Shown here one piece after another: positions 17,687-42,604 of a stretch of DNA of 64,000 nucleotides. Made by a program: the position numbers and the translations under genes. The stretch covers positions 1-64,000 of the forward strand of contig MPDC01000006.1 of assembly GCA_001874255.1 (NCBI GenBank), given 5' to 3'. Under the pieces are notes generated by a model that was not told where the DNA came from, ran no database searches, and saw only the letters and a list, made by a program, of their open reading frames with translations. Within the stretch, counting starts at the first letter, position 1, and each line of letters opens with the position of its first letter. The stretch comes from Alphaproteobacteria bacterium MedPE-SWcel (GTDB lineage: Bacteria > Pseudomonadota > Alphaproteobacteria > Rhodobacterales > Rhodobacteraceae).

Positions 17687-18739
17687 TCAGGAAATTCGGA
17701 TGCGGGGGTTCAGGAACACATAGCCGATATCGGAAATCAGCTGCGTGAGCAGAACCACCACGACGGATACAACGGAAACGGCGAGCAGCAGCTCGATGTC
17801 ATTGTTGCTGGCCGCTTCGACCAGCGCCCAGCCAAAGCCTTTGTAATTGAACAGGCTTTCGACGATCACGACGCCGTTCAGCAGCCAGGGGAACTGCAGC
17901 ATGATGACGGTAAAGGGCGCGATCAGCGCGTTGCGCAGCGCATGTTTCAGCACGATATTGGGGAAACTGACCCCTTTGAGCCGCGCGGTGCGCACATATT
18001 GCGCTGTCATCACCTCGGTCATCGAGGCCCGCGTCATGCGGGCGATATAGCCCATGCCGTATAATGCGATGGTCAGCACCGGCAGAAAGAAATTCTCGAA
18101 GGTTGGGTTTTCCATCGCAGCAGTCGCCGTGCCCTTGAACCATTTGAGCCCCACGGTGGAAGAGGCAAAAACCGCGATGAAGATCACGCCGGAGACATAT
18201 TCCGGGGTGGCGGTGGTCATGATCGACAGGGTCGAGAGCGACCGGTCGGTGGCCGAGCCTTCGCGCATGCCCGCCAGCACGCCGACGATCAGCGCCGAGG
18301 GGATCATCAGGATCAGCACCCACATCATCAGATAGCCGGTATTGCCGAGCCGGGTCTGAATGATGTCGCCGACGCCGGTCTTGAACCGGGTGGAATAGCC
18401 CCAGTCTCCCTGCAGGATACCACAGAACTGCGGCGCCTCTGCCGCGGCCGTCGGATCCACGGCGCCTTTGATGCAGCGGCCGGTGGTCCCATCCTCGCCC
18501 ACACGGGTCCAGCCCGGCACCACGCCGAGCCATTGGCCGTATTTCACGATCATCGGTTGGGCGTAGCCGTTCTTGTCCAGCCAGCTGGCCACAGCCTCGT
18601 CCGACATGCGGAAGTTGCCTTCGGTCTTGGCGAGCTTTTCAAGGTTCGGGTAGAGATTTGTCAGAAAGAACACGATGAACGTCAGGCACAACGCCGTAAT
18701 GATCATCACGCCCGAACGACGCAATATGAATAGTCCCAT
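17687..18739 (-). CDS. ABC importer permease (DppB/OppB type)
   Basis: The 350-aa protein has the family's N-terminal transmembrane start (MGLFILRRSGVMIITALCL), a large periplasmic loop (about 40-125), then five hydrophobic segments and the coupling loop YVRTARLKGVSFPNIVLKHA. It forms the channel with the downstream enlarged permease. The intergenic gap to the binding-protein gene is 164 bases and contains a stem-loop, consistent with higher expression of the binding protein. Confidence 0.92.
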   Translation of the reverse strand: MGLFILRRSGVMIITALCLTFIVFFLTNLYPNLEKLAKTEGNFRMSDEAVASWLDKNGYAQPMIVKYGQWLGVVPGWTRVGEDGTTGRCIKGAVDPTAAAEAPQFCGILQGDWGYSTRFKTGVGDIIQTRLGNTGYLMMWVLILMIPSALIVGVLAGMREGSATDRSLSTLSIMTTATPEYVSGVIFIAVFASSTVGLKWFKGTATAAMENPTFENFFLPVLTIALYGMGYIARMTRASMTEVMTAQYVRTARLKGVSFPNIVLKHALRNALIAPFTVIMLQFPWLLNGVVIVESLFNYKGFGWALVEAASNNDIELLLAVSVVSVVVVLLTQLISDIGYVFLNPRIRIS

Positions 18740-37682: not shown

Positions 37683-40052
<2,370 letters not shown>

Positions 40053-40059
40053 ACAGAGC

Positions 40060-42150
40060 ATGAGCGGTCGTCCGGAACAGCTGTTCCCTTTGTTTGGGGA
40101 ACTGGAGACATTGCAAGGCGTCGGTCCGAAAACGGCCGAACACTTTGCACAGCTGAATATCATCGCTCCGCGAGACTTGCTGTATTCGCTGCCGCATGGG
40201 GTCGTCGATCGGCGGCGGCGCGCCACCATTGTGGGAATGGAGCTTCCGACCACTGCCACGGTAGAGATCACGGTCGGTCAGCATCGCCCGGCCCGCAACA
40301 AGGGCGGCGCCTACCGGATTGACGTGACCGATCAGGACACCGCGTTTCAGCTTGTGTTCTTTCATGGCCGCAGCCGCTATCTGACGGCGCAATTGCCGGA
40401 AGGGTCCCGGCGCGTGGTATCCGGCAAGCTGGAGCTGTTCGACGGCGCCGCCCAGATGGTCCACCCGGACTACATGCTACCCCTTGATGAAGCGGATGAA
40501 ATTCCCGAATTCGAACCGGTTTACCGCCTGACCCATGGGATCACCCAGAAAACGATGTACAAGGCGGTGCAGAGCGCCCTTGCTCGGGCTCCGGAGCTGC
40601 CTGAGTGGATAGATCCGTCTTTCAAGGCGAAAAAAAACTGGTCGGACTGGCAGGATGCGATGCTGGCCGCGCATGCGCCTGCCGGGCTGGAGGATCTCTC
40701 GGCGGATGCGCCAATGCGGGCGCGATTGGCCTATGACGAGCTGTTCGCCCACCAGCTGACCCTGGCCATCGCCCGCTCGGTGGAGCGGCAGCAGCCGGGC
40801 CGTGCCTCTGTCGCCACCGGAAAGCTGCAAAGCAGGGTTCTCAAGGCTTTGCCCTATCGCCCCACGGGGGCGCAGGCACGGGCGATTGAGGAGATCTCTG
40901 CCGATATGGCAATGGCGCGTCGCATGAACCGGTTGCTGCAGGGGGACGTTGGGGCGGGAAAGACGCTCGTGGCCTTCATGGCGCTGCTGGTCGCGGTGGA
41001 GGCAGGCGGGCAGGGGGTGATGATGGCTCCGACCGAAATTCTCGCGCGCCAGCATCTGGAGGGGCTGCAACCGCTGGCCAATGATGCGGGAGTCGTGCTG
41101 GAGCTTCTGACCGGGCGTGACAAGGGCAAGGACCGCAAGGCAAAGCTCGACGCGTTGCAGCGGGGCGATATTCACATTCTGGTCGGCACCCATGCGGTGT
41201 TTCAGCAAGACGTGGCCTTTCACGATCTGCGGCTGGTGGTCGTGGACGAGCAGCACCGGTTTGGCGTGCGTCAGCGTATGGAGCTGGCAGAAAAAGGTCA
41301 GCGGGCCGATGTTCTGGTGATGACGGCAACACCGATCCCGCGCTCGCTGGCCTTGACCCAATACGGTGATATGGAGGTCTCGGTCCTCGACGAGAAACCT
41401 CCGGGTCGCAAGCCGATCAAGACGGCGATCATCAGTACGGAACGGATGTCAGAGGTGGTGGACCACCTGCGGACGGCCATCGCCGAGGGGCGACAGTGCT
41501 ACTGGGTATGCCCGTTGGTCGAGGAATCCGAGGTGATGGACCTGACGGCGGCAGAGGCCCGGTTCAAACACTTGCGCGCTGTTCTCGGCGAAGACGTGGT
41601 TGGGCTTGTGCATGGCCAGATGCCGCCACAGGAGAAGGACGCCGCGATGGCGGATTTCCAGAAGGGTCGCAGGCGGGTCTTGGTGGCCACCACCGTGATC
41701 GAGGTCGGCGTCAACGTCCCCAATGCCTCGATCATGGTGATTGAGAGAGCCGAGATCTTTGGCCTCGCCCAGCTGCATCAGTTGCGGGGGCGGGTGGGGC
41801 GCGGCAGCGCGGCCTCCACCTGTTTGCTGATGTACCAGCCCCCGCTGACCGAAGGCGGGCGCAAGCGGCTGGAGGTTCTGCGCCAGAGCGAAGACGGTTT
41901 CGTGATTGCAGAGACGGATCTGCACATGCGCGGCGCCGGGGATGTGATCGGCACGGCGCAGTCGGGTTTGCCGCGGTTTCAGATTGCGGATCTGGAGCGC
42001 CAGGCGGATTTGATGGCGATTGCGCAAAGCGATGCGCGCGCGCTTATGACCGCGGATCCCGAATTGACCGGAGCGCGGGGCCGCGCCGCGCGAACGCTCT
42101 TGTGGTTGTTGCGGCAAGACGAAGCCATCCGTCTGATCTCGGTTGGGTGA
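40060..42150 (+). CDS. recG: ATP-dependent DNA helicase RecG
   Basis: RecG remodels stalled forks and branched recombination intermediates. The 696-aa protein has the N-terminal wedge domain (LQGVGPKTAEHFAQL, OB-fold around 60-130) and two helicase lobes: Walker A LLQGDVGAGKTLVAFMAL, DEQH box VVVDEQHRFGVRQR, motif III MTATPIPRSLALTQYGDM, motif VI QLRGRVGRGSAASTCLL. ATG 40060 begins 7 bases after the ligA stop, so ligA and recG form a repair operon. Confidence 0.96.
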   Translation: MSGRPEQLFPLFGELETLQGVGPKTAEHFAQLNIIAPRDLLYSLPHGVVDRRRRATIVGMELPTTATVEITVGQHRPARNKGGAYRIDVTDQDTAFQLVFFHGRSRYLTAQLPEGSRRVVSGKLELFDGAAQMVHPDYMLPLDEADEIPEFEPVYRLTHGITQKTMYKAVQSALARAPELPEWIDPSFKAKKNWSDWQDAMLAAHAPAGLEDLSADAPMRARLAYDELFAHQLTLAIARSVERQQPGRASVATGKLQSRVLKALPYRPTGAQARAIEEISADMAMARRMNRLLQGDVGAGKTLVAFMALLVAVEAGGQGVMMAPTEILARQHLEGLQPLANDAGVVLELLTGRDKGKDRKAKLDALQRGDIHILVGTHAVFQQDVAFHDLRLVVVDEQHRFGVRQRMELAEKGQRADVLVMTATPIPRSLALTQYGDMEVSVLDEKPPGRKPIKTAIISTERMSEVVDHLRTAIAEGRQCYWVCPLVEESEVMDLTAAEARFKHLRAVLGEDVVGLVHGQMPPQEKDAAMADFQKGRRRVLVATTVIEVGVNVPNASIMVIERAEIFGLAQLHQLRGRVGRGSAASTCLLMYQPPLTEGGRKRLEVLRQSEDGFVIAETDLHMRGAGDVIGTAQSGLPRFQIADLERQADLMAIAQSDARALMTADPELTGARGRAARTLLWLLRQDEAIRLISVG

Positions 42151-42155
42151 AACCC

Positions 42156-42205
42156 GTTCTGTTCCGGTGTGTTCTCATTTGTTCCCGAATGTTCTTAAAA
42201 AGTTC
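42156..42205 (+). promoter_or_regulatory. GTTC array with a perfect GTTC-N7-GTTC (LexA-type) box
   Basis: Six GTTC words start at 42156, 42161, 42171, 42181, 42191 and 42202. The last two form GTTCTTAAAAAGTTC, exactly the GTTC-N7-GTTC operator described for LexA in Rhodobacter; the others fall at 10-base spacing, one helical turn. The array lies between recG and a 40-aa membrane peptide starting 82 bases downstream. LexA control is inferred from the motif. Confidence 0.65.
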
Positions 42206-42286
42206 TTTACACGACTCGCGCGAAATGAGAACAAAGGGTCAACAAGAGCGTCACGCTCGTTTGACAGAGAACGAAGAGGTCCCAAG

Positions 42287-42409
42287 ATGGTTACGCAATT
42301 CAAATCCGCCCTGCGCAATTCTCAATCGACGCTTGTCCAGGATGCTTTGGGGGCGGCCTCTCTCGTGGTGATGCTTGTGGTTGGGTTGCACCTGCCCGGA
42401 ATGTTCTGA
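42287..42409 (+). CDS. Small single-span membrane protein (40 aa) behind an SOS-type box
   Basis: A 40-aa reading frame starts at ATG 42287 with GAGG about nine bases upstream and ends TGA 42409. It has a polar N-terminus (about 1-20, MVTQFKSALRNSQSTLVQDA) and a hydrophobic segment (about 21-38, LGAASLVVMLVVGLHLPG), so it is probably an inner-membrane peptide. The upstream LexA-type box suggests DNA-damage induction, by analogy with SidA of Caulobacter, a tiny SOS-induced membrane division inhibitor. No sequence relationship to SidA is claimed. A terminator follows at 42569. Confidence 0.62.
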   Translation: MVTQFKSALRNSQSTLVQDALGAASLVVMLVVGLHLPGMF

Positions 42410-42568
42410 ACCTTCGGTCCTGCGAATTTTCTTTTTGCCTGTATTTTCGTGCCGGATGGGCCTGCCGTTTGTCTGGCTCGGATCGATTGCCTGTTCGATC
42501 CGCACCTGTGGCATCTGCCTTTGGTGTTTGGTTCCCTCCGGGTCCCGCATGAAAATACGATCACTTGC

Positions 42569-42604
42569 CGCCGCCATCTGCCCGGATGTGCGGCGGTTTT
42601 TTCT
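42569..42604 (+). terminator. Rho-independent terminator downstream of the 40-aa gene
   Basis: CCGCCGC (42569-42575) pairs with GCGGCGG (42591-42597), extended inward by CATC/GATG, and is followed by TTTTTT. It is about 160 bases past the 40-aa gene; no other gene is visible in between. Confidence 0.85.

Follow-up and report, generated by a model that had tools for sequence, protein, structure and literature searches.

A candidate two-product SOS locus behind recG in the Rhodobacteraceae: LexA-type promoter, small membrane peptide and structured 3′ RNA

SidA of Caulobacter crescentus, a 29-residue division inhibitor of the SOS response, acts on FtsW (PMC4211646), and Caulobacter LexA recognises GTTC-N7-GTTC (PMC12700426). 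The YneA helix binds FtsW, although by itself it does not block division (PMC13396833). Two Escherichia coli membrane peptides belong to type I toxin-antitoxin loci: DinQ, a 27-residue single-helix SOS peptide that depolarises the membrane, and TisB, which is SOS-induced (PMC3567139). In Klebsiella pneumoniae, DinR, a small RNA derived from the 3′ end of the LexA-controlled dinI mRNA, represses ftsZ; LexA-controlled small RNAs are rare, the DinR paper noting a lack of others under direct LexA regulation (PMC10907235).

Here we analyse a locus of the alphaproteobacterium MedPE-SWcel for which we favour, with a probability of about 0.55, the following reading of the sequence: a LexA-repressed SOS transcript behind recG with two products, a small membrane effector and a 3′ regulatory RNA. 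The locus lies in a window of 64,000 nucleotides (the whole stretch of DNA that was analysed). A first-pass annotation had picked out six GTTC words in front of a 40-residue open reading frame, and placed both correctly. Its overall interpretation, an SOS-type array before a SidA-like peptide, stands for its box and its peptide, for the association with recG and for the half-sites in phase, all of which are conserved, but it overlooked a GAAC element and a structured 3′ RNA. With this RNA and its terminator the unit reaches about position 42603, beyond the end at 42409 first given. Its features, in window coordinates, are:

40039-42150, + strand: recG, an open reading frame named in the first-pass annotation, its stop codon directly before the array
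42156-42184, + strand: four extra GTTC half-sites (42156, 42161, 42171, 42181), from sequence and conservation
42191-42205, + strand: operator O1, a LexA-type box GTTC-N7-GTTC, with its strict core conserved across the family
42206-42211, + strand: TTTACA, directly 3′ of O1 and −35-like (TTGAC in some relatives), role presumed
42229-42243, no strand assigned: operator O2, GAAC-N7-CAAC, LexA-like, in opposite orientation, presumed −10/start region
42273-42279, + strand: ribosome-binding site GAAGAGG, from sequence
42287-42409, + strand: 40-residue peptide MVTQFKSALRNSQSTLVQDALGAASLVVMLVVGLHLPGMF with one membrane-length helix, from its ATG reading frame, conservation, codon statistics, hydropathy and AlphaFold2
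42435-42562, + strand: structured 3′ RNA, from a model match, fold and covariation
42440-42452/42547-42559, + strand: closing stem of the 3′ RNA, enclosing inner hairpins
42480-42501, + strand: inner hairpin of the 3′ RNA whose loop holds TTGCCTGT, from the single-sequence fold
42567-42603, + strand: intrinsic terminator, hairpin 42567-42597 plus T-run, from the fold

The promoter and its operators

The GTTC words start at 42156, 42161, 42171, 42181, 42191 and 42202. The four from 42161 to 42191 follow each other in 10-bp steps, and the last two (42191/42202) form the exact GTTC-N7-GTTC. Counted by itself, the exact box is not rarer than chance: the window has two copies where 1.85 are expected, and the genome has 105, little enriched over the 84 copies of a reversed control pattern. 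The triple GTTC-N6-GTTC-N7-GTTC is present once in the genome, at this locus, and its reversed control is also present once. Because both lie near chance frequency, we dropped the bare box and the triple as evidence. Nowhere else in the window do GTTC words lie as densely as in this cluster of six; at other places at most three fall within 50 bp. It is conservation across the family loci that puts the array above chance and rules out a chance cluster of GTTC words.

Conservation was counted in 95 loci, made up of three own-genus loci and a single locus for each of 92 further genera in the family; 14 same-genus siblings were excluded to limit relatedness, and the counts use about one genome per genus, the genera themselves sharing ancestry. 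The strict core GTTC-N7-GTTC-TT(T/G) is present in 93 of these 95 loci, the two exceptions having a changed box base (L148) and N6-N6 spacing (L151). The phasing of the extra half-sites, remarked on in the first-pass annotation, is also conserved: 84 of the 93 core loci have a GTTC at exactly −10 from the box and 36 have one at exactly −20, against an expectation of 0.33 per offset derived from the GTTC frequency in DNA further upstream. Among 80 named loci, which partly overlap with the genomes of the 95-locus sample, the core is found in 77, and of these 73 have the −10 and 42 the −20 half-site. Moreover, a 45-bp composite promoter (up to 2 mismatches) matches in 283 of 394 family genomes, and its reversed control in 2 of 394 (G031, G074). 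The composite promoter is single-copy in each genome apart from G307 and G385, whose two matches each point to a possible duplication of the locus.

Three same-genus loci (L012, L015, L016) are without the −10 half-site and carry a second full GTTC-N7-GTTC 32-33 bp upstream, as if one mode of half-site multiplication had replaced another.

Might the array serve another direct-repeat regulator, instead of or alongside LexA? The conserved extra spacing is N6, with N7 (a GTTC at −11) in 2 of the 93 core loci, and its 10-bp step differs from the 11-bp step of LexA direct repeats. O1 also mostly ends in AGTTC, whereas the same-genus recA and lexA boxes, read on the other strand, show TGTTC (by eye). 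We nevertheless consider such a regulator quite improbable, since GTTC-N7-GTTC itself is retained at nearly every locus, the GAAC element resembles the recA and lexA promoters, and LexA is encoded in every same-genus genome searched, namely the own genome and 12 others (13/13; among 21 genomes searched).

The GAAC element stands downstream of the box: 88 of the 93 core loci have a GAAC at exactly +38, and 80 have a CAAC at +49. In three of them (L163, L174, L179) this element is a perfect GAAC-N7-GAAC, which favours reading it as a second LexA operator, O2. Its GAAC has the orientation of the same-genus lexA and recA boxes; by eye, GAAC-N7-GAAC is present in 13 of 13 lexA and 12 of 13 recA promoters of these genomes. 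The spacing of the same-genus lexA promoter, TTGACA-17-TAGAAC, suggests that GAAC there also forms part of the −10 element. By extension, O2 may overlap the −10 element of the peptide promoter in the same way; the −10 hexamer is weak, which counts against our best reading. LexA control of the peptide transcript is inferred from these DNA sites. LexA and peptide show no significant co-occurrence (Fisher p 0.14), and so no proven link: LexA escaped detection in 8 of 49 genomes without the peptide and in 1 of 31 with it.

Other boxes of the genome deserve mention. Its own recA promoter (C51:128443-128468) has three GAAC words in 11-bp steps (GAAC-N7-GAAC-N7-GAAC); inspection by eye showed this arrangement in 2 of the 13 recA promoters of the genus (L119, L067). 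AT-rich GTTC-N7-GTTC boxes ending in TTTGTTC lie near possible gene starts at C5:113920, C17:60156 and C27:34653, and perhaps mark further SOS genes.

The 40-residue peptide and its place behind recG

The first search (61 genomes, E≤0.1) found the peptide in 30: in 17 of 18 same-genus genomes (among them the own), 13 of 19 other members of the family and none of 24 from other families. One match (L030, E 0.076), which is without a box, reads as spurious and was excluded from later counts. With a profile of 25 peptides (E≤0.01) the peptide was found in 345 of 394 family genomes, from 393 genera. A class-wide draw of 289 genomes gave profile matches in four, all of the own family, and none outside it. 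The promoter pattern is present in five (G064, G097, G118, G341, G420) of the 49 family genomes outside the 345, and absent from the other 44. Two of these five were read, and each encodes a divergent peptide, of 38 or 40 residues, with a D-x-x-G core. Since divergent peptides of the same design sit behind the promoter in these two peptide-negative genomes, 345 of 394 is a lower bound. Box and peptide, whose conservation in other Rhodobacteraceae the first-pass annotation had put forward as the point to look for, are thus both conserved.

The reading frame, with its start and the ribosome site GAAGAGG, is coding by its codon statistics. Across 17 same-genus loci pS is 0.68 and pN 0.19, showing purifying selection on the peptide, and the 5219 pairwise differences fall at first, second and third codon positions in numbers of 1644, 615 and 2960. 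The peptide of one same-genus genome (G010) is 98% identical to that of the window. For the wider family, 80 further loci were taken from the better-scoring listed part of the 345, and residues were counted in the 71 peptides of 39-40 residues, leaving aside nine of other lengths. Each of D19, G22, L34 and P37 is conserved in 97% of these 71. The best 19-residue hydropathy is at least 1.6 in 70 of them, and AlphaFold2 predicts a helix over residues 2-39 (mean pLDDT 81.4, pTM 0.40), so that the single membrane segment first proposed agrees with both predictions.

Pfam gave no match to the peptide. In NCBIfam, single members of the 25 alone had matches (best E 0.0019), which we read as composition, and assignment to a known protein family by this route was rejected.

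The chromosomal setting is constant too. In 94 of the 95 sampled loci the C-terminus of RecG (last 150 residues, tblastn) is encoded upstream on the same strand, so that the neighbour named at the outset is a neighbour family-wide. A search of plasmids found no match to the locus.

A small membrane peptide under a LexA-type box might also act in cell lysis or in the release of gene-transfer agents. LexA is linked to gene-transfer agents in Rhodobacter capsulatus. Putative LexA sites are reported at the gene-transfer-agent cluster of Dinoroseobacter shibae (PMC6473078), and a membrane peptide would suit such a role. The constant neighbour is recG, however, and we regard a role in lysis or release as very improbable.

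The structured 3′ RNA

A terminator-like hairpin with a T-run follows the peptide gene in 78 of the 80 relatives, in 73 of these 78 at 143-219 nt after the stop codon, and the region between stop and terminator is conserved in words and length. Four of the 80 loci, whose terminator was not found or lay far off, were left out of the RNA counts. In the other 76, the word CTGCCTG occurs in 68 and CTGTCCC in 64. A second open reading frame here was rejected: the longest closed frame in the region reaches 30 residues in 14 of the 76 loci.

Single-sequence folds of many loci follow one plan, a long closing stem around inner hairpins with the conserved words in loops. These folds were viewed for 24 and 20 loci, some of them non-seeds, before seeds were chosen. 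When 48 rows were aligned without regard to structure, their consensus fold showed the terminator alone; a closer set of 14 loci yielded the consensus fold that became the search model. This model found the RNA in 71 of 95 sources (E≤0.1; 230,822 bases) that lie outside its seeds, yet were not all previously unseen, with one match per source; in the remaining 24 it found none. All 71 matches start 2-111 nt after the peptide stop, on the peptide strand. The copy in the window, from which no sequence had entered the model, scored 40.7 bits (E 6.7e-9).

The 71 rows then served to build a further model, R2. Since its searches include genomes of those rows, its results describe copy number and position, not new detections. 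Under strict filters (E≤0.01) R2 matched once each in 88 of 198 family genomes and not in the other 110; the match adjoins the peptide or promoter in all 74 cases with a listed coordinate. In the class sample it matched in 3 of 240 genomes, all of the own family. Among 25 chosen loci it recognised 23, including that of Ruegeria pomeroyi and one of the pair with divergent peptides, and missed Phaeovulum veldkampii (L265) and L211. Misses of the RNA may arise from divergence, loss or the strict filters. The genus of the window carries a weaker version of the RNA: the own copy has TGCCTG twice, is without CTGTCCC, and in its single-sequence fold deviates in detail from the family consensus.

Covariation supports the fold. 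In the 71-row alignment 89.2% of cells pair (68.4% in one weak hairpin) and double changes occur at all 27 modelled pairs. Double-change cells number 301, compared with 72.8 after shuffling and 32-51 when the pairs are slid. The 14 seed rows show a double change at 10 of the 27 pairs, with 19 such cells against 6.4 shuffled. Because the 71-row alignment leans to the model, we added an alignment-free test in which the 5′ and 3′ arms were exchanged among 62 non-seed loci. Own arms pair at −25.6 kcal/mol on average and swapped arms at −17.6 kcal/mol (duplex energies capped at zero), and none of 20,000 permutations reaches the own value; a displaced control arm gave a z of −1.4. The conserved words are unpaired with probabilities of 0.69-0.82, against 0.45 for the average base.

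These results bear on the simplest account of the region, that it is a mere stabilising 3′ UTR with a terminator and that its loops have no partners. Such an account would sit well with the terminator at the end of nearly every locus, with the weaker version in the window's own genus and with folding energies that, once the terminator is removed, are moderately below those of shuffled sequences (mean z −1.55, 30 loci). On the other hand, the loop words stay constant while the stems vary, as in RNAs that bind a partner, and compensatory changes keep the multi-branch fold, so we think a mere 3′ UTR unlikely.

If the loops do bind, what might they bind? The words are complementary to G-rich stretches. 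GGGACAG, the complement of CTGTCCC, occurs in a few same-genus lexA leaders (two by eye: L086, L094), and these leaders are a lead to an RNA target. In the leaders of the locus itself GGGACAG is found in 0 of 93 and GGACAG in 1 of 93; GAGGCA, the complement of TGCCTC, occurs in 13 of 93.

Self-inhibition of the Hok type, by pairing of the 5′ leader with the 3′ RNA, found no support: across 74 loci the own leader and RNA pair at −28.9 kcal/mol and swapped partners at −29.7 kcal/mol (z +1.9). This lack of an own-partner excess counts against a rival view, in which the locus encodes an SOS toxin that, like TisB and DinQ, depolarises the membrane and is active in persistence, with the 3′ RNA controlling the stability or translation of the toxin mRNA. 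LexA-type control, small size and a single helix would fit such a toxin, and the DinQ promoter is described as overlapping two LexA operators (PMC3567139), much as O1 and O2 are arranged here. Unlike mobile toxin loci, however, this locus keeps one chromosomal place across the family and gave no plasmid match. We hold the toxin reading to be doubtful.

A comparison of 16 relatives and the whole window with Rfam gave no match here that reaches the gathering score. Up to E 1, the stretch in the window has one match, to mir-2518 (21.5 bits against a required 61). The Xanthomonad small RNA sX13 has C-rich hairpin loops. It is the sole Rfam match (RF02232) up to E 1 in six relatives, at one locus, and its 22.5 bits (E 0.54), far below the gathering score of 50, are taken here as chance or analogy. 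Elsewhere in the window, at 17932-18110 (+ strand), Rfam RF02647 matches with 150.3 bits; this is the Ruegeria cis52 small RNA, tabulated as lying antisense to the gene of an ABC transporter permease (PMC4809877).

A proposed mechanism and its known counterparts

In our preferred reading, LexA in undamaged cells would occupy O1 at the −35 region, steadied by the 10-bp-phased half-sites on the same helical face, perhaps through cooperative binding. It would also occupy O2 at the −10/start region, and the promoter would be tightly shut. Very tight repression fits two LexA-like operators with phased half-sites, and is what one would expect for a product that harms growth. DNA damage would lead to cleavage of LexA, and a transcript of roughly 370 nt, starting near O2, would then be made. 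The first part of this RNA would encode the 40-residue peptide, forming one helix in the inner membrane, and the peptide would most likely slow some process at the membrane, in the first place division, in the way of Caulobacter SidA. By analogy, action on the divisome has a little less than an even chance; depolarisation of the membrane, likewise by analogy, appears doubtful.

The last ~170 nt would fold into the multi-hairpin RNA, with mostly unpaired TGCCTG, CTGTCCC and TGCCTC words and the terminator. This RNA most likely regulates in trans: like DinR it would act by base pairing, here with G-rich ribosome sites. One form of the proposal is a family-wide, two-product SOS checkpoint, in which a tightly repressed, double-operated LexA transcript would give rise to a peptide that stops a late step of division and an RNA whose repeated TGCCTG/CTGTCCC words silence G-rich ribosome sites. 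We offer it tentatively, with the odds against it.

The locus matters for several reasons. One family-wide locus seems to join a membrane peptide of the SOS response with a structured RNA, and the family has marine members such as Ruegeria pomeroyi. The locus may be this family's way to pause growth or division during DNA repair, and it gives a genetic handle on arrest after DNA damage in these bacteria. If the checkpoint reading is true, one transcript supplies both the protein arm and the RNA arm of damage arrest. The locus also adds an RNA family that matches nothing in Rfam at threshold. Whether LexA represses more tightly where extra 10-bp-phased half-sites are present is a question for which it provides a natural test. 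Among the literature matches listed, titles and abstract openings do not describe the peptide or the RNA; the supplementary table of LexA sites in one study (PMC6473078) might list the box.

How does the locus compare with the known systems? With SidA it shares LexA-type control, a length below 50 residues, one membrane helix (here predicted) and a home in the Alphaproteobacteria. It differs in that the peptide has 40 residues, is encoded behind recG, is followed by a structured RNA and is found family-wide; the two are likened by description, not by sequence. TisB and DinQ are likewise small hydrophobic peptides under LexA (here a LexA-type box), whereas the inhibitory 5′-3′ pairing was not found at this locus. 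For the RNA, the likeness to sX13 consists of C-rich loop words and the below-threshold match in one relative. DinR resembles it in having a LexA-type promoter, a small protein gene and a 3′-end RNA with a terminator, a resemblance here by sequence arrangement alone. Again likened by description, our RNA differs from DinR in being conserved and structured across a whole family.
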